Shown here piece after piece: positions 32,083 through 59,301 of a DNA stretch of 64,000 bases. The stretch lies in the NCBI GenBank assembly GCA_026874595.1, contig CM049306.1:81866142-81930141 (forward strand), read 5' to 3'. The notes below the pieces were generated by a model. It had not been told where the DNA came from and did no database searches. It saw only the letters and a program-made list of their open reading frames with translations. Numbering within the stretch: the first letter of the stretch is position 1; the number at the start of each line of letters is the position of its first letter. A program made the translations under genes and the position numbers. This DNA is from Sipunculus nudus. Taxonomy: Eukaryota; Annelida; Sipuncula; Golfingiida; Sipunculidae.

Positions 32083-32158
32083 CAGGCGTGAGAGAAGATG
32101 AACCAGGGCTCGTTTCATGTTAAAATTCAAGGCTGGACCAGCATGCCCAAATATCCTG
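32083..32158 (-). CDS. Candidate alternative first coding exon of FRMD4 (MKRALVHLLSRL)
   Basis: The block ends at GCCTG|GTAAGTACTG, a strong donor. ATG at 32118 opens 12 codons, MKRALVHLLSRL, ending in phase 0, as needed to join the shared exon at 28474-28539, 3.5 kb downstream. The same frame is open back to an AG at 32159-32160 (TTTTTATAG), so this could instead be an internal exon with additional residues. Vertebrate FRMD4A/B also have short variable leaders before M-T-E-G-R. There is no transcript support here. Confidence 0.4.
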
Positions 32159-32159
32159 C

Positions 32160-33824
32160 TATAAAAACTGTCTGGGTAATAACTTCAGAACAAGTCCTGC
32201 ATGGAATACAGTCCACCTACTGATTCTGTTGCATTAATAAATAGTCTCAGCTATTTCCTGCTGTGTGCAGTCTCCTTGACTTGAAACAAAGATAGAGACA
32301 CATGTTCACTTGATGTTTTCCAAAGTGCCAAATCAGCAAATACACCTGTTTCTAACCTCCATTCATTCAGCTAGTTGAGTTAAAATGTAAAATTTTATCT
32401 GATGTCCTGATGAATGTGACAGAACTTTTTTAACCTTGGCACTGTTGGTGTTTACACAACCCTCACCAGGTGTCACCTGTTGTCTATGCTTGTGACAATA
32501 AATTGGTTCCTATCAGAGGAAACAATGTTTACTAGAGGATCAATACACTCCTCTTTTTGCGTAATCCAAGCAGCATCGGTGAATCCCATCAGGACCCTTT
32601 CCATGAAATTGTAAGGCCTGACTTTCTTAATAAAACTGTCCAAATATTTGGTTTAATGCCCCATGATGTCAGTATTTCACAGCCTGCATCTATGCCCTCA
32701 TATCAACAGGTGTCACTGCTTGTCACTGCAAGATGAAAATCCTGCAGTATCCAATAGCAGTGCTGAATAATGCATAAATACAGTCACAGATTTAAACCAG
32801 CTTTGTCAGCAGTGTGCTCTATTGGTCGTACATTGTATATGCGGAGGGTTTTATTGTGGGCTGGTCTGAATTTGCTTTACAGTCATGTGATGTGGAAGTG
32901 GGTGAAATTGAACCACCAGCGAGTCTCACCCTAAAAAATAAAGGTGTCTCTAAAAACTCTGCGAGGATGAGACCCCACCACACATGGATGCATGGGAAAG
33001 CAATAACAGATAAAATAAAGGAATCTGATATGAGCGGCACCGCCTGACAAATCTCATAGTTTATGCCATGCGATGTGTTTGTTGTATATCCTAGTAGGGT
33101 TCATCCCTCCCACCAGAGCTGTTTGTACTTCACAGATGTGGAAACCAACGAGTGAGACAAATACCGTCAAAACAACATCCTCCTCCCGCTACCTCAGCCA
33201 TCACTTAACCTCTGACCTTTTTTATCTTTCGCTCTGATCCTAAACTGTCTATTTCATGGCAGATTTATCCAGAAAAGTGTTCCCCGGAAAAATGACCCCT
33301 CAAGCTATAAAACTGCTGTTGGGTCAGAGGTTTCAGGCTATTTTTATTATTATAATAGGATAGAATCCACAGCTTGCAATGTCTGCTACATAAAGACAAT
33401 GATAGCTATAAGGTGATGATTATATAAAACTGGCCATGGCCATGATCTGTATTGTGTTTTTATTAATTTTGTTTTCCAATTAAGATTCTTGATACATTAA
33501 GCAATTTTTTTATTGTATCCATGAATAATATAATTCACGTAAGATCAAATCCCACAGCTGTTTTAAAGCAAACCTTGAAGACTCCAACAAGGTTTTCAGC
33601 AATCATGGTTTAATTTTATATTGGCAGATCTTGAAAGCTTAAACAAGAGAGCCACTGTGATTCTTGTGGCATTTATACTGAATATCATCAGTCTGATATA
33701 TAACCCTCTGTTTTTCTACACTGTTTGCTTGAGATATCTGCCTACATTTATTCATGAGCACTAGCTTAACAAAGCATGTACATCTGCTGAATTCTATTCT
33801 GTTTTCAGATTACATGACAGGGCA
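32160..33824 (-). other. Upstream region, no feature recognised
   Basis: No exon or repeat ends recognised apart from the candidate exon at its left edge. The short overlapping frames on both strands at 32814-33047 have no splice or family support. Confidence 0.4.
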
Positions 33825-34114
33825 GTAGCGTAGGTTTCTTCTCATTTTCTATTCTGGTGTCAATCAGGCCCTGTGACCACTGCACCTGCAGGTCCTGGGT
33901 GTGTAATCATTACTTTGCTTGGTCATACCCATGAGAAACTCATGAAAGGTGCACTCGTTTGTGAGTGAAACATGGCCATGGGGTAATGCCTTCCCATGAA
34001 GCCTGCAAGTGCTCACCTTGGGTGGGGAGTGACCATGAAAAATCTCATTGCTCTGACTGAGTTTCAACCTCATGATCTCCTGGCTTTGAGTCCTGTGCTC
34101 TCCCTCTAGACCAA
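33825..34114 (-). mobile_element. tRNA-derived SINE, copy 2
   Basis: This is the same layout and length as the copy at 15983-16275. On the minus strand an A-box-like AGGGAGAGCACAGGACTC comes first, then CCAGGAGATCATGAGGTTGA (B-box region), then a body with AACGAGTGCACCTTTCATGA and ATGACCAAGCAAAGTAATGA. The copies are clearly diverged. Both are inserted in the orientation of the FRMD4 gene. Confidence 0.75.
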
Positions 34115-35517
34115 AGATGCCAGTTTTATCTAACCCTCTACATGCAATATCCTACATCCCTTCTTACTGAAAGTTCATAATTAAGAATAACTTGTCTCGT
34201 TGACAGAATCATCTCTTTATAGTTCTCCTTTATAGGCACTAACAAACCAGTTTCAAACCATTTTGAGCCATGCATTAATAGCAAACAGTTCCGAAGCAGC
34301 TTCATGTGTTAAGGCCTACATATCAAGCAATCTTTAGCTCACTACCTTACCCTTGGAATGGAAAAAGACACTTTTTCTGCTAAGTGTGAAACCTGTGATT
34401 ATGAAATACTCATATTTCTGTTCCATATGTGACAGCTACAGAAAAGTAAAGGCACTGACAAAACATTTTACAAAATTAATCATACTATAATCCAATCAAC
34501 ACCTGTCACAAGATCCTTAACCATGTTACTGAACAGTTGCTGCAGTAAACAATTACTTCCTCAGATGTTTATTTAACTCAAATGCTATATGGGTCATTGT
34601 AAGATTTCTTCTTCTAAATTACTGATGGGGTGCCTAATTCATTCCTAGAAAGGTAATCTAAAACTTTGAAGGGCATACTTGGTTGGAACAGCTAGACTAT
34701 AGTTTAAGCTTACAAAGAATGATACCAGTAATTCAGACGGATATTTGCTCTGGCAGTGGGATCAGATTTAGTAATTACACAAACCCTGGATGTTTTTTCA
34801 CATGGTGGCCCTGGACAGTTCATCTATAGCTTGCACTGTTCTATTGGAACCAGACAGGAGGCAAGAACCACATCAGTCACTCTGATAATGTCATTCCTAA
34901 ATACCTACTTACCAGGCCCTGACCACATCATAGTGATGCCTAAACTGTCATATTCTGACCAGATAATTAACCACTCGATGTTCATACCACAAATATGACC
35001 AAGCTCACGTTTACCATTATATTAGAAGTTCACTCTTGTTTTAAGTTACTTTTGTCTAGGTTATCTGATTATATTCTTAACACTTTAAACAGAGACTGAC
35101 ACTGTAATTTTGAAGTGAAGAAGTGCTGAGATAATAAATACACATGTAAATTTAACTTTGAGTTGTAGTGTTCAAGCAGTGATGTGCACACATTTCATAA
35201 CAAGAATCTGTTGCATAAACAATTTAAGCTGTGTACAGGTTTAAATACCATTGTTACAATGTCTTCATTGTTACTACAGTGACACACACATGCCTTATAA
35301 CTTAGTCCAAAATATTACTGTAATCACTTAACTGCAAAAGACTTGAGAATTCTTCTGATCCAAAAATGTTTTTACTTTGGGTCATTTGATGTTAATGAGA
35401 TTGTTGGGCAGAAAGAATTGTATATTATATAAGAGGAAACCAATAACATGCCAATCAGAGCATTTAAGAACTGAACTGAATAACTAAGGTAAAAGAACTG
35501 AGTCACAAGGTGTTTAA
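34115..35517 (-). other. Upstream region, no feature recognised
   Basis: Ordinary AT-rich sequence without splice-bounded frames or clear repeat ends. Confidence 0.4.
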
Positions 35518-35922
35518 AGGAGCCCAATCACATATAAAGCATGTTAAATTAACACGAAAAATAGCGTGTTCTCTGTAAAATTATTTGGTACCAGCCAAAA
35601 TTTTTTCCCTGATACAGTTGGCCAACTCCTGTACAGGAGTGTTAAAAACAGTGGACCGGGCACAATCCTAGGTGTCAACATAAACACAGCACATCAGACT
35701 GTGTGCACTGCCTTGGCCAAAACATGTCAATAAGGAGATGTTTGTAAATAGACACACGTTGACTGTATTTACAAACATGCAAATCCATTACAAGGTGTTA
35801 AACAGCTCAAAGAGAGGTATTGAGACCATGTGCTAGATAGTTTTGCTCTGAATTTTGTATAAAGCAAACATGAACTGATAGTGTGAAAGAATAAGTATAA
35901 TATTGCTCCTGATTATGTCCCT
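35518..35922 (+). mobile_element. TTAA-type non-autonomous element, copy 1 (about 405 bp)
   Basis: It is flanked by TTAA at 35514-35517 and 35923-35926, with ends AGGAGCCCAATC and, reverse-complemented, AGGGACATAATC. Internal phrases AACTGATAGTGTGAAAGAAT, TACAAGGTGTTAAACAGC and AGTGGACCGGGCAC recur in reverse order and on the opposite strand at 47496-47954. TTAA duplication and AGGGACA-type ends suggest piggyBac- or Kolobok-class mobilisation. No transposase is encoded. Confidence 0.75.
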
Positions 35923-35926
35923 TTAA

Positions 35927-38900
35927 CCTGATACCATCATCACTGAAGTTCAGTGATCAGGAGTGTGAACAAATTCATACCACATACTGACTGGCTGCTG
36001 ATCTCATTAATACAAGCATTCCATTTGATAACTCATCTGTGAAATTTGATATAAATTTACAGAGACCAAGTTTCCCTCCATTTTGTCTGATCTCGGAATT
36101 CACCATCCCAGTCAGGACACAGAATCATGAAAGTAGGAAGTAGAATGCTAAGCACTACACAGGCTGCCCCAGAGGCTGGCCAAATAATTTCACAGCCCAG
36201 GAGCCATACTGGCAATTTAATCCCCTAAGCACATGTTATAATCTCCCATCTTATTATGGCCCGAGGCCGGGAGAAGTGGCTTAATTAATTGTTTGCAGGA
36301 GACTTCAGGACACTGCTTGTGTGCACAGTGTTAGTAGTTGTTTCTGTGGTCATTCTAAATTACTGTTATCAGTTCATTCTCTCTAAGCACATACAGCAAG
36401 TAGGATTTAAGAGAGCAAATAAATTTTTTATTACACTTGAAAATGCATTTCTTGTATAACTGTTCAAGGGATAAGTGAAATCAGGTCAGTTTCCAATTTA
36501 GCAGTAATAGTTGTACAATTCATCCCCCTTGCTGCAAAATAATTAAATTACACTGGACAAAATGAAACGACAAGTAAATTTAAACTGTACTGCTTTTCGT
36601 TAGCAGTGTATAATATATTTTCAGACATAATAATAAAAGAGCATGGAATTCTTATTAAATATGAATATTTTTACTCCAAGGGTTAAAACCTTTTAATTAA
36701 TTTTTTTTTTAAAATACATATTAAATATTAAGATTAAGATAATAATGGAGAATACTACACAGTACAAAATATTATTTTACAGAACCATGTCTGTGCATCT
36801 ACACATCACCACTGAATTATTGGAAATACCCAATGCATTAATTAAAGATTATTGAACCTCTTGAATGATTTGGTACCAGGTTAAGCCAATGCCCAGGCTG
36901 ACACTGACTCCCTGCTGTTCTTACTACACTAACCACACAGCCTCAGGGCTCTGCACACATCTCTGCATCTGTTACTGTTCTCAGCAAACCAACCCAGCCT
37001 GCCAGCTGTACAGTCAGAGAGATCAGCAGAAAATAAGCCCTGACACAGACCATGACAACATAGAATAAACACTGACAACTGTAATATAGGATGCTACGGC
37101 CACAATGACCATCGACATAGCAAAAAGTTATAGTCAATGTGAATGGAAAACACACAAAATGGGCAAATACTGTGAGAGAAGATTATTATACAAGTATGAA
37201 ATATCAATACTGTCTCAATAGTCCTTGTGCAAAAACATGAAGTTAAGCAGTGAATCTGATGAAGTCAAAGTACATTAAACATGTTTTTTAATATAGCATA
37301 ACAATAAAAATGTACGTTAGCTGTATCTGAAAATCAAGACAGGTTCAAGGTTAAACTTAAAGGTTCTAATCATGGTCTTCCCTTCCCTGAGTCATTCAGT
37401 AAAAAAAAAACAAGAAAATACAACTTATGTGACACTGGATTTACTAATCGTAATTACTCTTTATGTTTTGAAGAAAGATGATGTCCAAAAATGTGCATTA
37501 AGTGAAACTGACATTGTTTTGATTATTAACAAGTTCTGAATCTTCTCCTGGGTGTCAAGTACAGTGATTTCCCAGGGTCCTTTGTGACAGTAACAAAAAA
37601 TGAAAATGGGTACACACATTCAACATATGTACAAAATTATAGATTAAGCCCCTGCATATGTTTTTGAGGTCCCTCTCTATGTACAATGTTATGAATGTGT
37701 CTCATGTATGCCTGGTAATAGGCATCACCCTGCTGCATATGACAGAATTTAGCTAATTATACATGTACAGATATTCTGAATGAGCAAGTTCCCAGTAAAT
37801 CTGAAATTCTGTGACTGACTGTATATAATAGATGCAATAGAATCAATGTCAATAACCTTTAATGTCACCAAATTAATTCCTGCTGACTATGTGAAATAAA
37901 TCTATTGGATGAAAATGGCATGTGATGCCAGCGTTATGATAGATCCTATTACAGCAGTGCATGCTAAAGAGTCAGGTTAATTTACCTATGTTTAATTAAC
38001 ATCATAGTGTTCAACTGTTAAGAGTTCACCTGGGACTACCAATTCCGTAAGTACAGTGCTTACCTCTCATCAAACAACACAACTTCTGTGATGTTATCCT
38101 GGAGTACCCCCTCACCACTTGATGTTCACCTGTACAGATGAAGGTGAGAGGGAGCGTACTCTTGGCACGGATATCGACACTCGGTAGCAGATTTAATCAA
38201 ATACAGCATGCCGTTACCTATGTACATTTTGCATGGTTTGTGGCTCAGCTCCTACAGTGTGTTAGTACTGCCAGTATCCAAGGTACTCTCACACCTGTAG
38301 CCAGAGCCGAACTGATCAGAATCACAGCTCCATGATGCTGCACATATTATCACCCCCTCCCTCCCCAGGTACCCCATATGTTAACCTCTTCTCCTTTGAT
38401 AGCCTCCACACAGAAGCACTGGCTACCTGAGCATGACAGCCGTGAAAATAACTGTTCTGGTCACCTGGAGATTAATCATCTCACCACCTGCATAAACCTA
38501 CCCGATTTCCTCCGTAAACATCACAGTCCCAGGTACATATCCCTAAATAAGCTTAAAAAGACTGATGGTGCCAAACTATGATGCTTCCCATTTCACGAAA
38601 TGTATATATATTAAACTAATGTGAAACAGGTAGCCACAGCTCATGCATGCATTATGTGCTGGTACATGCATGAGGGGACTGACCAGTTTCATTAGCATAT
38701 TTACTCACTCATGCCGAACACTATGAGGAGACCACAAACAGGTCAAGCGTGCCATTATATTCATGGGACAAAGGGTCTGTAAGCATTCATACATAAGAAC
38801 TCTCCCAGCTGATTACATCTATGAAGGTCCATATGTTTAGTACCCTGAGGGTACAGCACATTGACTTTAAAGACATTCCTCTTGCACAATATGGCATATT

Positions 38901-41594
38901 ATATGCTGGGTATGTATCAGTTCGCATTTTATACATATGGTCAGTGATATGAACAGCACAAACTAATAAAGATTTGTGAAATAATTACTAGAATACTGTG
39001 GGGTCTGGGCAACTATTTTTGTAAGAAGGTGTAGCTGATTGCAAGTTAGTGCAAAAGTTGATATTAATTCCCTGTAGGCTACATATGTTTTAACAACATT
39101 CTTATTAACACTATAGGATAAAACTAAGTTCCTTTTGTAACATTTGAAATGAAAACAAATCATTCACAGACATATTTGTCGTTTGAATGAATAAATGATG
39201 TGAAACTAATGAACCATCAAACCTATCCCATCCCACTGCATTGCCCTATCAGTTTGTACCAAAGAGACAGAAATACAATGATAAAGTCAGCGTCTGTTTG
39301 CTGCTATTTGACAAAACAGCTTTACACTGGAACTGGTGCTCAGCACAGGAAGCCACAGAAAATGAGCTACTGACTACCCAAGCAAACTGAACGCATGTAG
39401 CTTACATTCCTTCAAATTAAATAACTATTTCTTAAATTAAAATCATCCAACTGTCCCAACATCAGATACTGTGATACCTCTCCTCATGGGCACCACTGTA
39501 TCACAGACACTTGAAGCAGCCAATGAGTAGACTTCACTTAGAGGCCGGTGACCTCTCTTATACAGACACCTCTGTATTATAGGTAGAAATGGTCGTGTAA
39601 GTATCTGTCATTGTGAACTCTGTAGACATTTTGTAATTTTTTTTAAATCAGGAAACCTCTTCACCCTAAAAAGCCTGGTCCATTCATATCAGAATATGAT
39701 GTTCTGAAAGATTATTGAGAAATGTAAATATAATGAGATCTCATAAGCCCATACATCAAAAAGATCAATTATTCCAAATTTTATTTTTCATCAAAATATG
39801 AAAACAATGGGATTTCTGATTAGATTCTGTGTCAGCTAATTCTTGCTTTCCCTGAAAAAGTCGAATTATCTGAATGTATTCTTTGACCCCTGAGCTGTTC
39901 AGATTTATAACTAAGGCACAACATGTATTGACTTGCATATGACTTTGGACCAGCAGGATCATGTGGCTGCTACATACTGGGATTGCCTGACTGTCTGGAG
40001 CCCCACAGTCCAGCCAGTTTGTGCTGTATCCTATGTCTTGGTGAGAATATTAATAAGTACAGCTGGTCAGACGCTGGCTAATGCTGCAGCAACGCAGCCT
40101 AGCTGCATCCCAAGAGCTGAGATGCTATCTTCTAAATTACTGTCCCTGTCACAATGAAGTATGATGGTCATCAAGTAATGCTAACTCAATATCCTGCTGA
40201 GGCTGAACTTAGGACAAGTACAACATGCATAGATCAATGTAAAACCAGGATGAGATGCACTGAGTGATGAAGCACAGCCTTGATGGTAAAACTGAGTCAA
40301 CGCTTTCCCTTTTAATCTTAAATTGCAAGGGGAAATATAAGTAAATTTTGAAGGATGGTATGTGACAAAAAACATGTGCATATGATAAGTTATGCAAATC
40401 ATAAATTAGATATATATATATATATACACGTCTTCCCATGTATGGATACATTTTTGTGTGGTTCATGACCAAACTAGAATAAAACAGAAAAACATAAAAA
40501 ATGTAAAATTTATACCATATCTGCTCATAATAAACACTGTCAGCCCAAATAATGACTCTTTTGAGGTATATGTAATATTAAACGTGTTGGACATTTATAG
40601 CTTTCCCACTATACACATGAAAAATATTTAATACATTTAAGGAGTTGTAAGGACAATAACTCCCAGCTGAATCATGGAGACATTAGAAAAATATGATGGC
40701 CATGACAAGGCTCAAACACATGAAGTTTCAGGACATTTCCTGGACATTTTCAGGACCTTTTTGCTATTTCCCAAGACAAAATAATTTTAATAGCATGATA
40801 CAGTTGAATGAATATGCAATAAAGGTCACACAGAGTTCATGGATAGGTCAATTAGGTTTTCATTAAACGTTTGGGTCAGTCTAAAAATATGCATGATTAT
40901 AAACATTTTTAATAATGGCATACATAACAACATACAAACACTTTTGATTCACTGGATGTGACCCAATTAATATATTCAAATCTGATCTAACCAGTTTTCC
41001 AGGGCTCTTTCACAGGGGACACATGCTCAATAACAATAAAATATTTTCAGCAGGACACCCAGAAATTCAAAGACATATATTAACCCAGCTTGGTATGCTA
41101 ACTGTCACTGCTAAAGCTGAGATTATAGATCAGTATATTGACAGTTCCTCCTCGTTTTACTGCAAGAAACATGTTTTACTTCTGCTTCAGTTCTTTTGAA
41201 TGAAAATGGTATTATTGACCAGGCTAAAGGTATAATCTATTAACAGTAGATCTGAATCATAAATGTCTGAGAACTCCTGTATGATTTCCATATACACAAC
41301 AAGCTATTTTTTCTACCTTTCTGAAATTTGTATAACAGTACTACACACTGACAAGCTTCAATATTATGACCATCACTACTGTGTGGTAAATCACATTTTC
41401 TACATGTCTATAGAGGAAAGAATCTGTCAGGGTTTGATCGGGACACAGAAATATGACACAAAGGTAATCCAAGGATAATTCAAACATGTGCATCTATCTG
41501 TAGAGAGAGTTCTGCCTTGATTGGACCTGTAGTGGCAGAGAAAAGGGCAGAATCACACATGGGCAAAGGTGGCATATTTTAGTAGGATACTTAC
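35927..41594 (-). other. Upstream region with a weak exon-like block
   Basis: Mostly ordinary sequence. On the minus strand 38055-38123 has acceptor CTGTACAG and donor GAGAG|GTAAGC, but phase 0 has a stop right at the donor, so at best it is an untranslated exon. AC-rich short frames at 36865-37155 have no support. Confidence 0.35.
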
Positions 41595-41687
41595 TATTAC
41601 TGAGTCTTCTTCTGAGTGAAGACAAGCATCAAAGGCCTGTATCCAACAAGCCATGTTGGTCAACATACCCCCAGTGTCCCCCTCCAT
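41595..41687 (-). CDS. Candidate alternative first coding exon of FRMD4 (MEGDTGG...)
   Basis: A minus-strand frame from ATG at 41687 gives 31 codons, MEGDTGGMLTNMACWI then QAFDACLHSEEDSVI, ending at ATA|GTAAGTATCC in phase 0. Two further in-frame ATGs lie at 41666 and 41654. An in-frame TAA lies a few codons upstream, consistent with a first coding exon. Spliced to 28474-28539 it would place an acidic, cysteine-containing leader before MAEGRK. I do not recognise the leader in any family. Confidence 0.35.
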
Positions 41688-41689
41688 CA

Positions 41690-43236
41690 AAACTGTACAC
41701 TCACTGATTTATCAACTCGAGATAGGTTCCATCTCCAGCACATATGGTGTAGGTGATCTTCTCAACTATTTTCATCACATACTGAATCCTTCCTTTTTTT
41801 CCATCTTATATATATGACATAAGACCATAACAAGTTCCATACTCAAGTTGAGGAAATCAAAATACACAGTAGTATTAGATATCCTTGGTACTGAAATCAG
41901 TGTCCAAGAAATTATCTAAATATGATACTTGCATCAGCAGGCACACAAATAGTCAGTAAAAATCATCATGGATATTCATATACTGATATACACAGGTGTA
42001 ACTGACCTCTTTGCTCTTCTCAAATGATTGGTATAATACTATTAGAGCAAAAAATCCAAAGCCGACTAATATTTCATCTTCTTGCAGTTATCCCAACAAC
42101 AGACAGGCCAGTGTGTCCTCATATACATTTAAAATACCTAACTCATCCACATAAACTGGCTAATAAAGATAAACTAACCAGCCCATGGATAAATTAGTTA
42201 ATATAAATTTTGTTAAACAGACAGCAGTTTCCTTGTTCTAATTATTGAAGTAATCCTGTTGCTTGTTATCTAACTTCCTTTCTCCTTGTCATTATTAAAC
42301 CTTCACAGCTGGCAGTAATCATGTTAATTACCAGCTGATTGTTCAGTTTGTTTTGGTGCTGCATGAATCAGTTCCTGGTGCCAGAAAAACAACTTCTGTG
42401 CCAGTTATACAGACTTTAGGCATGTTTCCATTTTTATTACTCTATTTCCACCAAGAGTCTTTATTCATATAGTTTTCAACACATCTGGAAGGAGGTTTCT
42501 TGAGTGTTGAAACCACTCTTATTCCTGATACCCAGATGGTCGTTATATTGATATAAAAGATGCATTGTTCATACCGTCCTATTTGTCTGAATGAAGAGTC
42601 TGGTATCATCATTTTACCTTAAAGTCAACTGGTGTATCTAACATCTTAACCTCAGATCCAGGAGCTTGTGATGCTCTGTCACCATGGAAACAAACTGATA
42701 ATGGTGCACTCATTTGAGCACTGATGAAGCATATGTCCATGCCTTTACTATGGGAATGTATAAGTTTTCCTCAAATCAAGAACATTTGTACCATGCTACC
42801 TCTTTTATAATCTATATTTTTGTGACATGCCTATTATCCCTGTATGTTTCATTCATCTGCTAATGTTTACCAACCCAACTCCTTCAAACTGAATTACTGT
42901 ACCTATTTATACTGGTGTTTGCATTCTTGCAAAGTCCTGTATTTGATCTCAAACTAACATCCTGTCTAGTTAAAAAGCATTTATCTGAATTTCATCTCTT
43001 TGTCATTTTGTTTATTTTCTAATTCCATAATCTTAATATTTCCTATTTCAATTGTCTTTGATTTCCACATAAATCATATAATTGCAGCAACATTTTAGTA
43101 TCCTGTTAATCTTATCACAAACACATGAAATCCTGCCGCCTCTTAGTAATTATCCTACAGGTGTTAGGCTTACTAAAAGAATTTTTATTTTACAGATCAG
43201 AAGCCAATTATATCTTTATGTGTGTCACACTAGTTT
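41690..43236 (-). other. Upstream region, no feature recognised
   Basis: AT-rich sequence with no splice-bounded frame and no clear repeat ends. Confidence 0.4.
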
Positions 43237-43690
43237 TTTGTTATCCTGTTACTAAGCATGTTATGCTTTTGCCATGCTCATTTTCCTGTTTTCCTGTTTT
43301 ATCCTTGTATCACCTTTGTGATAATATCTATAAGACAGCTATTATTGTGTCATGTTAATTATGTCCATAGACCCATTATTCTTGTGTCATGTTCATAATG
43401 TGTCCTCAAGCCTGTTATTCTCATGTATTTCTTATTATAATACCCTTAACCCTGTTATCCTTGTGTCAAACTTGTGTCATTTGTGATAATATCCTTACCC
43501 CTGCTTTTCATGTCACATTTGCGGTATTCATTTTATACCTGTTATCCTTGTAGTGTCACACTTTTATCTTGCTTGGAAGCCTCTTATCCTGATATCACAA
43601 TTATTATCGTAGACCAATAAACCTGTTATCCTAGTGTCACAATTATTGTTATCCTTTTGTCCACATATCTCTTATCCTCATCTTTTATTG
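43237..43690. repeat. Degenerate tandem repeat, period about 50-60 bp
   Basis: The phrase CTGTTATCCTTGTGTCA, with variants such as CCTCTTATCCTGATATCACA and CCTGTTATCCTAGTGTCACA, recurs about eight times between 43237 and 43690 at irregular spacing. It is an old, diverged tandem array. Confidence 0.7.
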
Positions 43691-43734
43691 ATGATGTATC
43701 ATCCTATTTACTTCTTGTCAGTGTTAGAAAAGGA

Positions 43735-44606: not shown

Positions 44607-44783
44607 CTGCCAAAAGCTTCCTACCGTAAAATCTCCACTTAAAACCGCACGTCCGATAAAAACCGCACCCAGACTTTGCCGAAATCCTTGGTGAGACACC
44701 GTGAGGGGCTCAAATACCAAGAACCCCCCTTTAAAACCGCACCAACTCTCGCTACGGAATGATTTGACACAAGACACAATCAA
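44607..44783 (-). CDS. Candidate transposon-derived first exon
   Basis: On the minus strand, ATG at 44783 inside the CpG-rich transposon opens 59 codons (MIVSCVKSFRSESWC ... FTVGSFWQ) that cross the transposon end and stop at CAG|GTAAGAATA in phase 0. It could splice to the shared FRMD4 exon. The frame may also be chance, since the element end and donor are close together. I recognise no domain. Confidence 0.2.
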
Positions 44784-46048
44784 GCTATCCTCTAGAAATC
44801 AACACGCGTAGGTTGAGACACGGCCATTCCTGTCCACTATAAAAATCCTTGGGCATTTGATTTAAACACATCAAACACTTTTTTGCAGGGTCACTCATGC
44901 ATGGAGTTTGGGAAGACGCAAGGGCCGGTGAACCTCTGCGTGTTTATACAGACTTTATATGCCGTGCCGTATTCTTGTTTGCTACTGATTTCCCATTATA
45001 TTTTGGAAAAAAATATTCTGCTGATCAGTTTCAAGTCACTGTATATTTTATTTCTAAAGGTAATATTTTGAAATCTTAATCTATGATGAAAATTCTATTT
45101 TCTTGAATTACTCGGAAGATTCTAATCATTTTCATACCGGTTACTTCGGTATGATCATCGTCACATCATACGTTGACATCGCTCCATGTCAAAGTTTGTT
45201 GATGCGTTTGAAAACATCGCTGGTCAACTTAACTTAATATAAAAAATAACTGAATTTACCTTGTCGAGATATGCACGTATAGGAGGTATAGGAAACATGA
45301 CACGTGAAAACGAGTGATTTTAAAGTAAAATTAAAGTGGCCAGTCGAGGTAAGCAAGTTTTTTTTCCTAAAGCAAGTTTCCGTGGGGGGAGCCATCTTGT
45401 CAAGGCAGCGTTCCCGCAAGGCACACTGGGACGGAATAGGTGGCTGTTCTGTTTACCACCCACCGCGTACAGCCGTTAAAAATATTCTTAGCAGAATACC
45501 GGGGTGTTTCAGCACATGGCGGCACTCAAACTTCGTTTTAAAACGATCGTCCGCCATTGTGTGACTCTTTACGATGTCAGCTTTTTATTCATTTTATGTT
45601 TTAAACAAATAATCGTTGCTAAAAAATGCCGCAAATGGGTTTAATGTAGACATTTATTTCAATTTTGCTTGACCATGCCAAACGAAGTGGGCCGCTATGT
45701 GTTACAGCGGGGGTGTTATAAACGTAGTATTTGGTGACAATTACCAAGATTTTTATAACAAGTTATATATCGCACGAAAGATAATCAGCAATATTTAATT
45801 TACAAACAACAAATAATCGTAAATAATACGTTTACACACGGCTCCCATGCATGCGAGACTGCTGCTATAAGGGCGGCCTTTGAAAGTCGCCATATGATCG
45901 CCCACTCGCGGGCCCAAAACGATGTATGTCAGGAAGATAATCAGGAAACCCTTCTAGTATAAACCGCACAGTGCTTTCAGGAAAAAAACATGATTTAAAG
46001 ATTTTGAATTTCTTGATTAAACCGCGGTTTTAAGTGGAGATTTTACGG
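44624..46048. mobile_element. 1,425-bp pogo/Tigger-like DNA transposon, non-autonomous, CpG-rich
   Basis: Perfect 25-bp terminal inverted repeats (44624-44648 and 46024-46048) begin CCGTAAAATCTCCAC and are flanked by TA on both sides (44622-44623, 46049-46050). AAACCGCA-type subterminal motifs recur near both ends (44642, 44659, 44733, 45962, 46018), like the repeated subterminal motifs of pogo/Tigger elements. The interior has far more CpG than the flanks. The longest frames are 60-86 codons (44897-45079, 45304-45564) and I recognise no transposase or DDE motif. Perfect repeats suggest a fairly recent insertion. Confidence 0.88.
45391..45560. promoter_or_regulatory. Cluster of YY1-like motifs in CpG-rich transposon interior
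   Basis: GCCATCTTG (45391), ACATGGCGG (about 45514) and CCGCCATTGTG (about 45551) all match the YY1 core AANATGGCSG on one strand or the other, within 170 bp of CpG-rich sequence. YY1 sites near CpG-rich starts are common in animal promoters. Whether this element drives transcription is inference. Confidence 0.35.
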
Positions 46049-46050
46049 TA

Positions 46051-46613
46051 GGTGCTGTTTAGATATCTGCTAAAGATGCTGTGTGTTAGCTTCTTAACCA
46101 TTGTTTGAAGAAATACTCCCCTTGTAAAGAAGCAGTAGGAACAAAAGATGCCAACACTGTAGCAAGGGCACACCGAAAGAAGACTGGGTCCATGATTTCT
46201 TAGTCACTTGATTAAAATCTGTTCCACAAATGACTGTTAACCAATATACTGTGGTTTCCTTTTTATTGGCAGGGGTTTTAATTTATTGATATTTGTGAAA
46301 CGGAAATTATCATGAAAATTAAAACTACGTGAATAAGAGGTCCCATCTCTGAGATTAAGTGAAAAGGAAAAAGATTGCTATATTATGTCAAGTCTTTCAA
46401 ATTATCTGCCAATAATGAAGAATTATTTTATTTGTTCCATGTTCCCTTGGATCCCAATCCAATCATTATGATTTTGCCAATCATATTATTTATTAAATAT
46501 AATTAATTCAAATAATGTCCGACATGCTCTGGGTAGATTGTTATGGTGACTTCGCATAATTTAATCCATCCAAATATGAAGCGAACCACAGTTTATAGAA
46601 CAAATGGTATACT

Positions 46614-46656
<43 letters not shown>

Positions 46657-47125: not shown

Positions 47126-47495
47126 AACTATTCTTTTTATTCTGTTTTTTGTTACATGTGGAAATATTTTAATGATGCTCCTGTTATTCCTATTTTAGTG
47201 CCTACAATGTAAATATCCCCACAATGCTCTCGCAGTTATCCTAATGATAAACAATTCTTTGCTGCTTGATTTATGGTGTTTAACCATAAATGTTGATTAT
47301 GAATCAGGTTTTAACAGTCTCACTTATCATATTCTCACTTATTTGAAGAAATTTACACTTCCTGCTTAAAATATGATTTCCAAATGACAACAATGAGATA
47401 GCCATATGATAATTCACATTTCCAGGACAACTATCACATCTAATAATTTCAAAGAATATATTAAGAATTAAGGAAGTAAAGTTGTGTTTTTTTAA

Positions 47496-47954
47496 AGGAC
47501 ATAATTATAAGCTAGATCATGCCTATTCTTTCACACTATCAGTTCAGCTTTGCTTTATAAATACACATGTTTAACCAGGAAAAACATCCCATCACACAGT
47601 CTCAGTACCTTGCATATGGCTGTTTAACACCTTGTTAAGGTTTTGCGTGTTGGTAAACACAGTCCTGGTGTGTCTGTTTACCATAACAAGGCCACCTGAC
47701 TGGAGGTCTGATTCTGAGCTGCAACACCTGATGTTTCATCCAGCGGGATGCATTACATCTTTTTGGCCAAGTCAGTCAGGGCATCTCCTGATTTACATGT
47801 GTTGTGGCCCGGTGGTGGTCCACTGTTTTTAAGACTCATTTACAGGAGTATGCAAACTGTTTAAGAACAATATTCTGGCAGGTCAAATTTATTTTAAAGG
47901 GAAGAAGCCATTTTTTGTGTTATTTCATCATGCTGTACAGATGATTAGGCCTCT
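47496..47954 (-). mobile_element. TTAA-type non-autonomous element, copy 2 (inverted)
   Basis: This is the reverse-complement of the element at 35518-35922. AGGACATAATTATAAG follows TTAA at 47492-47495, then ATTCTTTCACACTATCAGTT, GCTGTTTAACACCTTGTTA, TTTGGCCAAGTCAG, GGTCCACTGTTTTTAA, and a right end GATTAGGCCTCTTTAG matching GATTGGGCTCCTTTAA of copy 1. The TTAA at the right end has become TTAG. About 50 bp of extra length indicates indels. Confidence 0.7.
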
Positions 47955-50066
47955 TTAGGTTACTTGTCCAGAACAGTGTCAGCAAGCAACTGCACTAGGA
48001 TAAAGTATTATATAAACCAGCATGTCACTCACATTATAAATGCATTAAGACCTGTATCTAGGGTAAAGCTGAATGCTGTATGAAGAGATGAATATGTATT
48101 AATAAGTGGCTGGTTGACTGGCTCTTGTACACTGCTACAGCATGTCAGGCCCTTTGCTGACAGCCACAACACACATGCCAGCGCTGCTCAGCCAGACCCT
48201 TGTACCTGGCTGTCAGTCAGTAAGACAGCTGTCTGTCTGCTATAACAGGTAAACCTCCACGCCCCTACACAGCACATGGATCATGGCAGACACACACCTG
48301 GATCTAATCAGTACTGTGCCTGAATCTAATTACCAATTAAGGTACCATACAGTCAAGGTGATACCTTGCACATTTTATTTAAATCAGTAAGAAGTTAACA
48401 TTTTATAAAAAAAATTTTAATCAAGATTTAAACACAAGTAAACCATATAAGAATTACAAGAGATACTTATCAGCTGTTTAAAATAAATCTACTCTAAACT
48501 GTCATCATGACACTGTAGGCCAGAAATATCGACTTTAGTAAAATTTTATCCCCCCCCCCCCCCCCCCCCCGTAAATGTTGTTGTTGGACTGAAACAAAAC
48601 TCCATCAAAACATCTATTCCACAGGATGGACAATTTTATAAAGGTTAACTACAACTATAATTACTTTTGAGTTTTAACACAATGCTGAGTTACAACCACT
48701 GTAATAAGGTATGAATCAAAACTTAAACCATCAGTTTCAGTGCTGCTTTATAGCATTAAAATTGCAACAAAACAAATGTCAAACTTTAAGTAAAAACTGT
48801 TATGACAAGTAATCAAATGTCAATTTAAATACCATAAGCAACTTCACTAGACCTTACTCTAAAACTGATAACTCATTAAAATACCTTATTCAACTAAGTT
48901 GGAGTATCTCAGCTGAATAATTTAAGTGGTCATTTAAGCCTGACTATGTAAGTGACATCTGAGTGGAGTTACAGCTACTTTCATTCTCAAAGTAAACATT
49001 ATATGTGATACATGTGCAGTACTGTTCACTGGAAACACAAACAAAAACCTGGTGTTTCAGAGCATGTACACAAGCTGTAATAAAGAGTAATTACCTTAAA
49101 ACCTTCAGTCACTTGTCTGTATTATCCACGTTTTATTATCAGGGTTGTATGCACAGGAGAACATGTAATTACTCCCCTCAATGACTAGTGCGGTAAAATC
49201 ATGCTCTTTTCATGAGAGCAACTGAAGTGAAGCGAAAGCTTTTTAGTCATCAAAAACAAGGAAAGCTGGTTATCTGTCCTGGTCATCTGTTCAATAGGGT
49301 ATCTGAGCATCAGACTCTATGGGAGCTCGACAAACTAAGCTCTGAATGTGGGATGTGACATGTTAAGATCTTATGTGATGGGAACTAAATGACAACTTCA
49401 CAATCCTGCGATCTGTGATGTTATAAGAGACAAGTCCCATGCACTAACGGAACAGGGGAGAACCAAATGTTTAGCCCACCAACTCTGTGTCAATTGGATA
49501 TTATTTGACCAGGAAGTTAAAAAAGTGATGCTGATAGTCATACTAAATCCTGAGAATCAAAACCAATAATGAATATATCATTCAATATCTGAGATTATTT
49601 CTTGGAAAAAATTGAAATTTAGAGCAATCTGAAATCAAACCAGATTATAATATAATTCATTTATCTGCTGGCAGAAATGTGAAAACCAAATGAAACTAAA
49701 ATGTTTACAGTTGGGATGTTTTTACAAAAACAAATTGAAATGGCATGTTATTTACTGTTTCTTTTGAAAGATTTATCATAGTGAAGAATAAAATCAGATT
49801 AAATGATTCAAGAGCTACTTAAAATGTTCCAAAATTTGAAATAAAAGACATCCATTGATGAGGGTAATCCTATTAGAGTAACAGGTGCCACATACAAATG
49901 TTATGAATCTTCCCCATTAAGCTGAAAATACTGATGAATGAAAGTAAAATGAAAGTACAATTATATTGTATACAGAGTTGAACATCTGTTACATTTCAGC
50001 AGAATTACACTTCAGGTGGTGTTTATGACCAATTTATATCCACCATTAAAAGATGTGGCTTTCCCA
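47955..50066. other. Upstream region, no feature recognised
   Basis: Ordinary AT-rich sequence apart from the C21 tract at 48550-48570. Confidence 0.45.
48550..48570. repeat. C21 homopolymer
   Basis: A run of about 21 C. Its true length is uncertain because such tracts are prone to sequencing and polymerase slippage. Confidence 0.9.
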
Positions 50067-50067
50067 A

Positions 50068-50086
50068 CCCAACAGGGGGCACCTGG
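50068..50086 (+). promoter_or_regulatory. CTCF-like motif
   Basis: CCCAACAGGGGGCACCTGG fits the CTCF core CCAnnAGGGGGCRC well. A second, weaker site lies 60 bp right in the same orientation. Confidence 0.5.
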
Positions 50087-50126
50087 CCCTCTGTCACTGG
50101 TGTCAGCATATTTGGTTCAAACAACT

Positions 50127-50144
50127 CCCAAAAGAGGGCAGCAC
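50127..50144 (+). promoter_or_regulatory. CTCF-like motif (weaker)
   Basis: CCCAAAAGAGGGCAGCAC fits the CTCF core with one or two deviations and is in tandem with the site at 50068-50086. Confidence 0.4.
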
Positions 50145-52250: not shown

Positions 52251-52299
52251 CAAAGATAGAGTGATTCTTTTGACATACTCCTTACACATGGCAAATGCA

Positions 52300-52665
52300 A
52301 AACTCTTTCCAAAAAGTTTTCAATCGCAAAGCAATCAAATCCGTTTTTTGCCAAACTGTTTTAATCCACATTTCAATGTGGGTTGAAAAGTTTTCAATGT
52401 GGATTGAGCTTTCCAACAGCAATAAAATGTGAACTAAACCTGTTTTGCCAAACCAAACATTACTCTAGAAAAAAGTGACGTCACGCACGTAGTCTGTTGT
52501 TGTATATGATGTCATTGTTTGGGAGGCATGATGCTGCATGCATATGACATCCTGGTTTTAGCTCAAACTGTTTTGGTTTATTTACAGTGTGAAACCGCCA
52601 AAGCAGTTTCTGCAATCTGCATTAGCCAAAACAGTTTTGGTGCAGTTGTCATGTGAAAGGGATAA
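52300..52665. mobile_element. Possible MITE with repeated AAACTGTTTTGG motifs
   Basis: Motifs GCCAAACTGTTTTAATCC, CCTGTTTTGCCAAACC, CAAACTGTTTTGGTTTA and CCAAAACAGTTTTGGTGC recur on both strands within about 300 bp, giving partial inverted symmetry. The middle contains a full cAMP-response palindrome TGACGTCA (52476-52483). Ends and target duplication are not clear. Confidence 0.4.
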
Positions 52666-52669
52666 TGGA

Positions 52670-54552
52670 GTGATTTAGTAGGCATGTATACGGTGAAACA
52701 TTTAATTCATGCTGTTGGCAAATACTGTATATCAGCCTGTGATATGTCACATGACATGTTGCAGCTGGAAACAGTGATGACACACTTCTATAAATCACAT
52801 TTATCAACACTAAACAAATGTTTACCCACATACATGCTCACATACCAACTGAAAACCTGAAGTCATTTGAAACAACTTGAAAACCTGACTAATTTATGGA
52901 TGCCATGACAAAGCACCTTTCATATCTGTTTACTGGCAGTGTTCTTCTATGGTAAACTGTAACAGTATAAATGTATAATGCATTTTTAAGTAAAGACTTT
53001 ACTGCATACATTACAACAAAAAGTCAACTATCAGTTACTCCCTGGGAGTCCCTCCTTGTTCTCTAAGAAGTAAAAGGTTTTATTTTGAAAATCTTGCTCG
53101 GAGCAGTTCCTTCCTAAAATGTCCAGATTCTAAGGTGGCTCTGATTGAAAACTGTGCCAAAATTGATTTCCAGTTCTTTCCTTCTTATTTAGTCTTTGGA
53201 ACTAATTACTGAGCTTGACTCTTCCCATGAGGTCTTTATTGTTGTGACTGCAAACAATATGCAGCACAGACTTCACTACAATGGACTAGGTAGAAATCAA
53301 TTAATCCTGCAATATTCAGAATGGTTCTTTCATGATGCTGTTATAAACTATTGTTGGTGTCCCACTATACTACAAGTCCAAGACCTAGGAAACAGGGACA
53401 TCAGTCCTGCATGCTGGCCATCCTTTAGGCTGTTATACCAGGCAGATTTGCTGTGCATTATTTGCTCAGACACTATCTGACACTCTGTCTCGAACTGGGA
53501 CCAGCACTGGAACACTTGTCCTTTAGCAAGACCAAGGGATTTGCCAAGTAACACTGGATCTGACAAATAACATCCATTAGGGTAACAGAAGTAAAGTGAT
53601 TTGATGATATAGTTTAAACAAATTACCTTTATACACAGTTATTCTGTATCAGGTGATTATTTAAGAGAGCAGCCACTAGGTAACAAAAACCCCTGCAAAT
53701 GCCACTTCTACCTGTATCATTATCAAATATTAAATGAGCAATTCCTTCCAAAAGGCACACCTTAAAAAGTCCTCTAACAGGACAAAATATCTCCTAAAGA
53801 GGGAAATGCCAGTGGCATGTCATTAAAGGTATTCCCTAAAGACAAATCTTACAGTCTTCTTATAAAGTTAAAATTTCTCCCCAGAGGTAGCACTTTTTTG
53901 TAAGTAGACGAATGGATGAAACTGCCACTCCAATTCATAAACCAATAAAGTTGCAAGTATCAAGATAAATAAACAAAATTTAATCAAGATTCTTCCTTCA
54001 CTTCTTAAGGTATCTGGTACAACCACTAACAGACATACAAAGGGGCGGATGAAAAAAAGGTGAAAAATCCATGTTTTTATTCCATAGGTAAACAGATACC
54101 CAGGAAAACTGGTTCATCAATTTCCAGTTTGACACAGTTTGAATGTTATTTCAGTGAGCATTAATTGCAATTAACATGGTGGAACTAAGACACCAGCATG
54201 TCCTTTATACATGTACATACATAGTATCAAGCTCCTTAACACAAATAAACCAGAGCTGATCACCCAGTGAATATGATGTTAAGACAAGACAAAATATAAC
54301 AGATTGACTACCAAAGTTCTCTTTCGGGCATTTCTTCCAATTTCTTAACTCTTCCTTTAATTTCCTGACCTTTTCCCGACTAGAAAATCATTTTTCAGAT
54401 TTTCCCTGATTTCTAGGATGGCTAAGAAATCCGTACACTGTACAGGTATGTCGGGATTTCTGGACACAAAGTTGACAGCAGGATCCCGATACATGGTCAG
54501 TACAACACTTTTGACACAGGATCGGGACCGGGAGTGAGGGTGTACTACTCAC
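52670..54552. other. Upstream region, no feature recognised
   Basis: Ordinary AT-rich sequence with no supported gene or repeat. Confidence 0.4.
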
Positions 54553-54699
54553 CGAAGACCGCATTTCAAACAATTTGGTCAGCTGCCTGACGGAGCTGAC
54601 CGAGCCGCTCCGCATCAGGTACAACATGGACATCGCACCTTTCTCCAGCTGTGCCAAGCTGCCAAAACTTTTACTCCGCTTGTGTGTCATGGTTAACAT
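54553..54699 (-). CDS. Candidate alternative first coding exon of FRMD4 (MLTMTHKRSKSF...)
   Basis: A minus-strand frame from ATG at 54699 gives 49 codons: MLTMTHKRSKSFGSLAQLEK, then GAMSMLYLMRSGSVSS, then VRQLTKLFEMRSS. It ends at TCTTCG|GTGAGTAG in phase 0. Composition is protein-like: a basic/serine segment RSKSFGSL resembling a kinase or 14-3-3 type site, then a hydrophobic-basic stretch. The surrounding 54.54-54.83 kb is CpG-richer than its flanks, as around a promoter. In-frame joining to MAEGRK would give a longer isoform. It could instead belong to an unrelated minus-strand transcript. Confidence 0.4.
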
Positions 54700-56290
54700 G
54701 GTTGGTGTTTCTGGTCTGCTTTCGCCGAGTTACAAATCCACTACACAAATACTGAGGATAGTCCGAGTTACTACAAGGAACCTCCTGACCTGGTCAGGTC
54801 TACAGAAGGTAGTGGCCGCACACAGCTGCCGGGCCCTGGTCATAATCCACAGCAGCCTGAACCTGGAGTGGTTTAGTGAACTGTATCAAGTCACTAGTCT
54901 CTGTGAAGTCCTATGTAAGATATATAGGATTCTGACTATTAGAGTTGAGACCCTGATTTTACAGGCATCTTAGGATCTGAAGCATGGCAATCAATGCACC
55001 AGGTAATGAGCTAAGCCTTGTTTTCAGGTACACAGGCATCCTCAAATCTTTTCCCAGCTTGCTATTTCTGTATCAGCAGCACACACAGCCCCTGCTCTTG
55101 AAAGCATGTGGTATGGCACACCGAATGTATAGGCTGCAGGGCTGTACACAGTTTACTTCAGTACAGCACCCCAGCCAGGACGGACAGCGGTATCTTCCAA
55201 CACTGTCTACAGGCTCCATTAGCCGTACCACAAGTTCCTGGGAACCTGTCTGAACCCTGATAAAATTGGTTCTGCCCCCATGCCCTGGGGCACTTTGTTG
55301 TGGTAAATCTTGTTCAGTTCCTGTTAGTTATCTGAAAGCTCTTGTCTTGGCCACACAGCCAGAAATCAGTCACCTAAATATAGGCCAACATGAAAAAGTC
55401 AGAACTAGCCTTCACAATACAGACATGCATATGCATAATATGCATGTGTGTATGTGCATGTATACTAAACCTGAAGCCTTGAACAAATGAAATATGAGTT
55501 GTTGTTTTTTTTTTTTGGGGGGGGGGGGGGGGCAGAGGAGGAGGGTTCAGCATGATACAAAACCTGTAGCCATCATAGCATACAGCAGCCTCCAGTTAAT
55601 CTCCCATCAGTGGTCTGGGATATTTAGCTGTAGATAACATGAGTGCTCTAAACACAGATTGACAAATATCCATCCCCACGCCAACCCCCTCCCCACACAC
55701 TAAACACCAGACAGTGACCAAACAGCACACCATGTTACACCACACAGGTTCATCTCAGTTCCACAGCCACAAGGAATGCTCATCAAAGCAAGGATCCAAA
55801 CAAATTTAATTATATGAGTGAAAAGAAACTGTCAAACTTGGATTTTACATGTAGCAGAAATTAAAGGATCATGCTAAAAAGCATTGTGAACCGACATTAA
55901 TAGATAGATATATATATCACTTTAATTTGCAGGAAAACCAAACGAAAGTGATTTGCAATGTATCAGTACATGAGATGTTTGTTGTAAGTATACACTTTCC
56001 TGTACTTTTATTTTTAGTGTAATATTTTTCATTCAGTATGACTACTAGGGCAGTAGTGCCAGTGCATATATATGAACATACATGTATACAGTTACTTATG
56101 CCTATCTGATATTATTACTATAAGTGCTGCAATTTTTAAGTTCCTATTACAGCAATATGAAATTTTTTTCCTCATATTTATTCATTAGAATCATAATATA
56201 CTTAGATTTTGGTAATTTTACAAATTTGAACTGTAAGATTAACATCAAATCTTTTGTTTATAGGTTTATACAGGCTGTATTTATAAAAAA
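54700..56290. other. Upstream region, no gene supported
   Basis: The plus-strand frame at 54575-54973 is antisense to the candidate exon and has no splice support. A T12-G16 tract lies at 55505-55532. The rest is unremarkable. Confidence 0.4.
55505..55532. repeat. T12-G16 homopolymer pair
   Basis: A run of T passes directly into a run of about 16 G. Confidence 0.9.
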
Positions 56291-56292
56291 AA

Positions 56293-56313
56293 CATCCACT
56301 AGGGGGCAGTGTA
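56293..56313 (+). promoter_or_regulatory. CTCF-like motif (strong)
   Basis: TCCACTAGGGGGCAGTGTA is essentially the consensus CTCF core CCACTAGGGGGCAG. It is the best match in the window. Confidence 0.6.
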
Positions 56314-56319
56314 GGTCAG

Positions 56320-58565
56320 ATCATGTTTAATTTGTTCCAGCAGTGACAATGTTTACCTTTGTGTACAGAAAAGACAAATACATGGGAAACCCTGCCTGTG
56401 TGCCAACTTAAACACCAGCCTGTGTATTTTGTTAATTGTACACTTGTAGGCCATAAAACCTGGCAGGTTGTGTAAACACCAGACAAGGAATGAAACAGCA
56501 GTGCACCAGAGACCCCAGTCAGAAGACAAGGCCAGCATTATCCCTTAGTTTCAAATGAATTTTGTCACAGACACTTTCTTAAAAAAAAAAATCACTAATT
56601 GAAAAGACAGAGTAAGTGAAAAGTGGTCCATAAAAGATGACAATCATACATACAAAGTGATTTCAAGGTCCATTGATGATTTTGGAGCTAATAACAATTT
56701 TTCGACTTTCAATGTAACTTAGCTAAAAATTTCAATCAGTTATTTTGTTATGAATGTGATGAACAAATGAAGATTCCTGTATACTTCTGGTTCCAAGATC
56801 AGCCAGTAGATGTCACCACTTGTCAACAAGCCTATTTCACACAACTTCTGTTTTATCACTTTCAGACATCAGCTATGTTACCAGTACATGAATGACCTCA
56901 ATGAGAAACAAGCGACATGGGTCACAAGGTTCATGATATATAGGAATAATTAAATGGTGCCGCATTCAACGCTTGGTAGAGTAATTATGAATTTAGCAAG
57001 AACAAAACATCAGAGTATTTTTAGCACAAGAGGATATACTTAGATCCCAGGGTTATATCTCTCAGTTCTGACATATCCCTTCAGAAGCCGTTTTTGTAAT
57101 GTCTTACCAGACAATCACTGTCTAACCATTTTTAATTCAAAAGCATGATTCACTGAATTTTTTAGTATATTCTTTTCTCTCAGATCTTCTTCTCATATAC
57201 ATACAAATATAGATTTATTAGTTGCCTAAATGCTGAAATGAAAGGTTGCAGATTATTTTCAACATTGTGAAAAATGTATCAATGCAATTTTCTGACACTC
57301 AGTTCATAATTTGTTTCATATCAATATATAAATAGTAAATTCAGTAAAATCAGGCAAGTAGCGAAAGGTGGCATTCATCCTTAAGTTGTGTAATAAGGCT
57401 TTCAAGAGGATGCTAAGATTTTTGATAGTAACCTTATCATTAGCTCACATGCGGGTGTACATTTTAACTGAAACTATGTTCTGACTGATAACAATATGTT
57501 ATTTGGTACAAAATGCTAATCTGTCAGTGGAACTCCATTTCAAATGAAATATTATACTGAATGTTACAGGATAAGGATGAAGAAGAGGGTCACAGTGACT
57601 TCATTTTACATGGAACATTTCCTGTCAGTGTTCTCTGATGCTGGCACAGAAAGGATGCTCATTAGTTCATATATTCAATTACACAGCATGATCTGCAAAC
57701 AAACTATCTTTCTAGGCCCAAGGTTGTTCATATCAGAACCTGCACTCAGTGACCTGTGACCAGGAAGGGGCATGATTCCCTTATCAGTAAACAAACATGT
57801 ATCAATGTTTGTAAAACCCTGATATATTCCCCATGTTAACAGACCCCCAATCTGTGTTATCACACAAACAACTAGTGTTTGTCACTGACGTAAATTAAGC
57901 ATCAAGCACTGTTTATCAACCTTGGCGATCTGAATTTGATTCAGCGCATGGTTATTTCATGGACCCTCTCACCCAGGATGCAGATAACAGTCTCCGATAG
58001 TAACTAATCAGGGGGTGAACCGGTGCTTGCTGTTAGCGCGCAGCCTTGGTTGTCATGACACTGTACTTCCTTGTGCCTATCAGCGCTGGCAGTGACAGGA
58101 TGGAAGTGTTGTCTAACAAGCGCAGCCTCCAATATCACAAGCCACATGTCAGACTAAACAGTCCCCTACAAGGTCATCATGTCACCAAGTACACCCTTAA
58201 TGAAAATGAACAGCAAGAAATCCCTTATCAGTTTTAATAAGACATCAGATAAGATATAGCAATAACACCCGATCTCATTTCTAATTCTAACAATGTAACC
58301 TCAACTTCAGAGTCTTCAGTACTAATAAAGATACCCAGCCAAATATATTTTATTATGAATAGGTCTATGGCCTAGTGTTTGGAATGTCTTTTTGAATGCG
58401 GATTAATTTGAAAAAACATAAGTCTTGTGAACAAATAATATATTATTAATTTAATAAACCTTCTAAATTTCAGATTTTCTATGCACAAAAATAGAAATAA
58501 TTCTAAATTAACAACCTGTGGTTGATACATACAAGCAGCTTTCTGAGTTTTATAGATAACTGAAT
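56320..58565. other. Upstream region, no feature recognised
   Basis: Ordinary AT-rich sequence; a small CpG-richer patch at about 58015-58110 has no donor-bounded frame that I can support. Confidence 0.4.
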
Positions 58566-58587
58566 ATATCCATTCTGCCATTGAAAT

Positions 58588-58662
58588 GCTGGCAGGGGTT
58601 GAACCAGATTTTTCCAATCCAGAGTCAAATTCCTTATTCACTTGGCTAAATGCTACCACTCT
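58588..58662 (-). mobile_element. tRNA-like SINE fragment with good B-box
   Basis: On the minus strand TAGCCAAGTGAATAAGG (A-box region) is followed about 30 bp later by TGGTTCAACCCCTGCC, a good RNA polymerase III B-box. There is no intact tRNA acceptor stem, so a SINE head is more likely than a functional tRNA. Confidence 0.5.
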
Positions 58663-59184
58663 CAACAAAGAGTAACTTTCCTGCATGCTATATCCCAGTG
58701 ACGATACAAGTCGATCATGTTAACAGCTGGTCACGGTGGGAAAATAACAACACAGTGACAGCAAAAGTCTCAATGGCAAACTGATATACAACCTACTTCA
58801 TTTGAGACTGTTCAAGAAGCACCTCTGAGTATACCTGAGTGTTTGTGATAAGCTGAAGCACCACCACCACATTAAACATTCCTGAAAAAAGTCTGATCAT
58901 TTTTTTTGCCATGCAAGTACTCACATCTTGTAATTTTTCATTAAACATAAATGATGAATTATTCAAGATGCTACATACTTTTTTAAGTTATCCAAACCCA
59001 TGACCGTATATGACTACTGTAGAACACAGTATCTGAAGGCAGGTACATACCTTACTACACCCATGCGGTTAGTTAATAATGACTTAAGTATCACGGATGA
59101 ATGGATTTTGAGGTGGTATATTAGATGGGCTTGGTGGACACAGGGGGTGGGGTGTGACTAGTACATTCAATTTTGTTTACTTAC

Positions 59185-59301
59185 AGACACTACACTGCCC
59201 CGGTCCTGCTGACCGCTCCATGTGCGTGACCGCTGAACCGGCTTGGTTCTCCTCATTTTCCGTGTCTCAGGAGCGCCTGATGTGTAAAAGTAACGGTACA
59301 T
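59185..59301 (-). CDS. Candidate alternative first coding exon of FRMD4 (MYRYFYTSGAPETR...)
   Basis: A minus-strand frame from ATG at 59301 gives 39 codons: MYRYFYTSGAPETRKMRRTK, then PVQRSRTWSGQQDRGSVVS. It ends at GTGTCT|GTAAGTAAAC, a strong donor, in phase 0. The block has several CpGs, unlike its flanks. The leader is basic (RKMRRTKPVQRSR), with RSRTWS resembling a basophilic kinase or 14-3-3 type site. Its fit to the phase of the shared exon suggests a distal FRMD4 isoform; a different gene is possible. Confidence 0.4.

Follow-up and report, generated by a model that had tools for sequence, protein, structure and literature searches.

How does translation of the FRMD4-like gene in this part of the Sipunculus nudus genome begin, and does the DNA upstream of its first FERM exon contain alternative first exons that would place different N-termini before the same domain? 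The first-pass annotation of the window (the whole stretch of 64,000 nucleotides analysed here) had proposed four such exons. We examined what supports the gene, which of the four frames stand out from chance, and how else the region could be organised.

On its minus strand, the window directly reveals five exons from the 5' part of a gene that resembles FRMD4A/B; these exons encode FERM subdomain F1 and the start of F2. They correspond to five minus-strand pieces, found in order with E values of at most 0.001, in a tblastn search of the window with human FRMD4A. The other five pieces listed had E values above 4 and were treated as chance. The E values below refer to this search.

28474 to 28539, minus strand: shared first FERM exon (MAEGRKSQIILLDDRQLEILIQ), the ATG of which abuts its acceptor; donor GTAAAA
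18038 to 18132, minus strand: FRMD4-like exon 2 (E 3e-12)
9106 to 9198, minus strand: FRMD4-like exon 3 (E 5e-11)
2563 to 2647, minus strand: FRMD4-like exon 4 (E 5e-8)
1562 to 1641, minus strand: FRMD4-like exon 5 (E 0.001)

AG acceptors and GT donors are present at these exons, and a single reading frame is held through the four junctions. The 139-aa product of the joined exons matches the Pfam families FERM_N (2.4e-19) and FERM_M (4.4e-13), both above the curated cut-offs. The FERM_M match covers positions 5-49 of 112; the remainder of F2 falls outside the five exons found, and the gene leaves the window at base 1. Together with the tblastn pieces, these matches bear out the earlier identification of the gene as FRMD4-like. 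Identity to human FRMD4A, the only FERM reference used, ranges from 62 to 85% in four exons (85% over 33 aa in the best piece and 62-66% in the three others) and is 33% in the fifth piece, a distance that by itself would point to a probable invertebrate. Searches against solved structures returned radixin, ezrin, moesin, FARP and others, with no FRMD4 among the 44 matches listed, and no relatives of the joined protein were found in prokaryote genome contigs. By the comparison with human FRMD4A, the gene would appear to be an FRMD4 rather than another FERM gene. As annotated, the ATG of the shared exon at 28539-28474 does touch the acceptor, which reads TTTTTTTCAG directly before it.

Upstream of this exon, the four annotated frames are present on the minus strand: each starts at an ATG, stays open and reaches a GTRAGT donor in phase 0, all of which is directly observed.

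32083 to 32118, minus strand: 12-aa frame with a good donor and a chance-level coding score, too short to judge
41595 to 41687, minus strand: 31-aa frame, probably not an exon, with a chance-level coding score and no CpG
54553 to 54699, minus strand: probable alternative first coding exon with a 49-aa leader (MLTMTHKRSKSFGS...); donor TCG/GTGAGT
59185 to 59346, minus strand: probable alternative first coding exon with a 54-aa leader; donor TCT/GTAAGT

The fourth frame had been started at 59301, but an in-frame ATG lies upstream at 59346, which lengthens the leader to 54 aa. The leaders are mutually unrelated, as had been claimed, with none of six pairwise comparisons beating shuffled sequences. 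The requirement for phase 0 holds for a coding leader but not for an untranslated one. The donors are strong on the intron side (GTRAGT), but the exonic sides of those at 41595 and 59185 are poor when scored with a metazoan donor matrix: the values are 6.7 at 32083, 5.2 at 54553, 1.9 at 41595 (ATA/GTAAGT) and 0.8 at 59185, compared with 2.8 for the donor of the proven exon at 28474. The four frames are not a full series either, since like frames at 41705-41743 (donor GTGAGT) and 34017-34073 (the top donor matrix score of all, 7.4) had not been listed.

The number of such frames is hardly evidence for exons. In the 35.5 kb that lie 5' of the shared exon, the minus strand has five phase-0 frames of 30 nt or longer that end at GTRAGT, one of them not in the original list, versus one on the plus strand. 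Markov sequences yielded means of 3.3 (order-1) and 2.6 (order-3), with five frames reached in 24 and 9 of 100 sequences, respectively; in block shuffles the means were 3.3-3.4, with five frames reached in 24.5% and 23.5% (200 each). The count is therefore near chance. The length of the frames is a little unusual: three have at least 90 nt, a number reached in 6 of 100 Markov sequences in each model, and two have at least 140 nt, as did 3 of 100 order-1 and 2 of 100 order-3 sequences.

A clearer distinction came from coding composition, scored by comparing average amino-acid frequencies with local triplets and taking the best ATG for each donor. Both strands and three phases together supplied 143 ATG-to-GTRWG frames, of which the 59185 frame ranked first (11.6 from 59346, 9.0 from 59301) and the 54553 frame second (9.0 from 54690, 8.4 from 54699), both belonging to the class that the alternative-exon hypothesis needs (28 of the 143 frames). 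The next scores were 7.4 for a frame inside a mobile element, 7.0 for a frame at 62664 and 6.2 for a plus-strand frame adjoining the 54553 leader. For comparison, second-best scores in order-3 Markov sequences had a 99th percentile of 5.1. Dinucleotide block shuffles that keep the local composition (blocks of 200 or 500 bases, 200 trials each) in no case yielded a pair of GTRAGT frames scoring 9.0 or more (0/200 with either block size), and one such frame of at least 11.6 occurred in 0% and 0.5% of them. With looser donors, the second-best value of 9.0 was matched in 2.5% and 0.5% of the shuffles, and 11.6 was reached in 7% (200-base blocks) and 2% (500-base blocks). The composition of these two frames thus directly exceeds local chance, being rarely or never matched by local shuffles. 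The CpG counts of the two leaders are ordinary after GC matching (0.11 each, and 0.14 for the 162-nt frame). Scores of 3.0 and 2.3 place 41595 and 32083, respectively, within the null, so the coding composition sought in an alternative first exon was found only at 54553 and 59185. A low score is in itself no ground to exclude an exon, because this crude model gives the five proven exons scores of 7.9, 9.3, -0.2, 2.8 and -2.0.

On this composition, the proposal of alternative coding first exons can be carried forward for 54553 and 59185, but not for 41595 and 32083, which remain at chance level and are most likely chance frames. We judge the chances to be about even that the former two are alternative coding first exons that add basic, Ser/Thr-rich N-termini ahead of the FERM domain. 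The 49-aa leader has 8 K+R against 2 D+E, and the 54-aa leader 11 against 3. Both contain an R-S-K/R-S/T site, which we take to be a possible target of basophilic kinases. Nothing in Pfam matched either leader up to an E value of 10, the 54-aa form being tested up to 0.1, and a Pfam search that covered the three leaders longer than 12 aa gave no credible match. Searches of the PDB with the two leaders gave insignificant matches only (E 0.77 and 0.25), and viral contigs contained no relative of them, which was hardly to be expected there.

Cues around the start sites do not set these two frames apart. A purine occupies position -3 of the ATGs at 54699, 54690 (context AACCATGA) and 59346, and a TATA-like motif lies 227 nt before 54699. 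However, the ATG at 32118 also has an A at -3, and 41687 is preceded by TATA-like motifs at 125-127 nt; the ATG at 59301 lacks an A there, and TATA-like motifs are absent within 600 nt of 59346 and of 32118. Scans for bacterial-type promoters, Rfam families and tRNAs gave nothing useful. Joining 59185 to the 54553 exon as one frame was considered and rejected, as the nearby AGs before ATG 54699 are, by eye, not in phase 0.

The view that all four listed frames are alternative first exons, as originally proposed, is the hardest to credit of the explanations that we weighed. Every frame does reach a GTRAGT in phase 0, proven exons of this gene sometimes score low as well, the donor at 32083 is good, and TATA-like motifs precede 41687. 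However, the scores of 41595 and 32083 are of a size that chance readily supplies, since 21.5% and 23% of local shuffles contain a top GTRAGT frame with a score of 3.0 or higher; 41595 has no CpG, and more frames of like kind exist that had not been listed. Improbable too, if somewhat less so, is that 54553 and 59185 are real exons of something else, either internal exons with an acceptor or parts of another transcript on the same strand. Three acceptor-like AGs with 11 pyrimidines in 16 positions, located 41, 100 and 211 nt before ATG 54699, would suit this explanation, the proven acceptor at 28539 having 12 of 16. Against it, no acceptor above that threshold was found within 300 nt of 59346, and no other gene was recognised in a Pfam scan of 20 stop-free stretches, namely the 59185 leader and 19 of the 35 open frames with 90 aa or more (including 15 of the 16 upstream of 28.5 kb); 18 of the 20 gave no family at 0.1 and two gave matches below the curated cut-offs, although shorter exons would escape such a scan.

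A weightier alternative, which we nevertheless consider rather unlikely, is that all four frames are chance, that every first exon of the gene is untranslated, with one main promoter in 61.4-64 kb, and that translation always starts from MAEGR in 28539. The near-chance number of frames is in keeping with this, and the ATG of the shared exon works without a leader. It is opposed by the two frames whose composition lies above that of local shuffles. Much of the remaining evidence on this explanation concerns the CpG landscape, for which the following features are relevant.

61401 to 64000: CpG-richer stretch (o/e 0.76) that may be a promoter or the gene's 5' flank
62664 to 62716, minus strand: frame within the CpG-richer stretch that ends ACA/GTAAGT in phase 2 and could be an untranslated first exon
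44620 to 46052: mobile element of 1433 bp (CpG o/e 1.16) whose 29-bp terminal inverted repeats are perfect

Between 1 and 61.4 kb the window is CpG-poor: leaving the mobile element aside, its three long stretches there have an o/e of 0.18-0.23. The value of 0.76 beyond 61.4 kb is of the kind seen where a methylated gene body ends, or at an unmethylated promoter, and a GTAAGT donor lies inside this stretch at 62664. Invertebrate methylation is found mainly in gene bodies, according to the accessible part of PMC3985014, and the CpG step near 61.4 kb could therefore mark the 5' edge of a transcribed unit, in which case 59185 and 54553 would lie inside that unit. Alternatively, a promoter could occupy 61.4-64 kb, or the stretch could be a second young insertion that is cut by the window end; a search of 60.5-64 kb turned up 12 pairs of inverted repeats, each 14-23 nt long, all of them imperfect and none resembling the ends of the element at 45 kb. 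The methylation reading of 61.4-64 kb is not clean, because TpG/CpA is still 1.32 there and the patch at 62001-62500 inside it has an o/e of only 0.26. Both values count against the explanation by chance frames and a single promoter region, as do the end of the window at 64 kb and the smaller CpG peaks elsewhere, for example at 4801-5300 (0.91) and 54301-54800 (0.67).

The CpG island at 44.6-46.1 kb was also considered as a promoter and was set aside, because perfect 29-bp inverted repeats bound it 1433 bp apart; most simply, it is a mobile element. Other repeats are found in the window as well. A minisatellite at 12827-14319 comprises 37 copies of a 40-bp unit and is spanned by long, repetitive open frames on the minus strand, the longest with 532 codons. 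Tandem arrays occupy 20718-21880 (337-bp units) and 23289-24187 (289-bp units), and diverged copies of their units recur at other places in the window, 26.0-26.8 kb among them. An inverted pair of dispersed repeats, at 35515-35926 and 47492-47957, shares 75-76% identity in two pieces.

If 54553 and 59185 are alternative coding first exons, transcription would begin at two or more promoters ahead of the first FERM exon, with one start near 54.7-54.9 kb and another near 59.4 kb or further up. The phase-0 donor of either coding first exon would be spliced to 28539, so that the leader reads into MAEGR, and the predicted products would carry a basic, Ser/Thr-rich tail of 49 or 54 aa before the same FERM domain. 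Where the leader is untranslated, translation would begin at the methionine of MAEGR. The tails may have a regulatory or targeting role. The 26-31 kb between the leaders and the shared exon are long but not absurd, since three of the four introns of this gene measure 6.5-10.3 kb. The candidate junctions to 28539 of first interest would accordingly be two, from 54553 and 59185, instead of four. The architecture with two leaders is probably of an ordinary kind, with an evolutionary angle.

In vertebrate FRMD4A and FRMD4B (GRSP1), leaders of unrelated sequence join just before MTEGR. The gene described here resembles them in that the FERM part starts at a methionine, with MAEGR in place of MTEGR. 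In leader sequence there is little resemblance: seven of eight comparisons between the leaders found here and vertebrate leaders were not above shuffles. The eighth, between the 59185 leader and the FRMD4B leader, aligned RTWSGQQD with RTWCGLQD near the end of each leader at a score of 35, which was reached in 0.27% of 20,000 shuffles. The same score was reached by 5 of the 2114 open frames of the window, the 59185 frame itself included, and because four other frames do as well the match is only a lead. It is a long shot that a multi-promoter architecture with phase-0 coding leaders is an ancient FRMD4 property, common to an invertebrate and vertebrates, and that 59185 may even keep a remnant shared with the FRMD4B leader (RTW.G.QD just before the junction). 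A literature search that included molluscs and invertebrates returned no work that is, on its face, about invertebrate FRMD4 genes.

The vertebrate parallel drawn by the first-pass annotation holds at the level of promoters. According to the accessible part of PMC5470264, mouse Frmd4a showed 852 TSS switching events during cerebellar development, the most of all genes, so that multiple promoters are known in the FRMD4 family; in what is accessible of PMC8499053, Frmd4a serves as a positive-control example of alternative isoform expression. FRMD4A and FRMD4B carry a CUPID domain and appear to bind cytohesins, as stated in the accessible part of PMC6226287. If both leaders are real, promoter choice would set which of the basic, phosphorylatable tails a cytohesin-linked protein carries in front of its FERM domain, and the heavy promoter switching of mouse Frmd4a would seem to be old. 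Compared with alternative-promoter first exons as a general class, the candidates described here differ in being known from sequence alone, but they share the arrangement of several ATG-bearing candidates upstream of one shared, in-phase acceptor.
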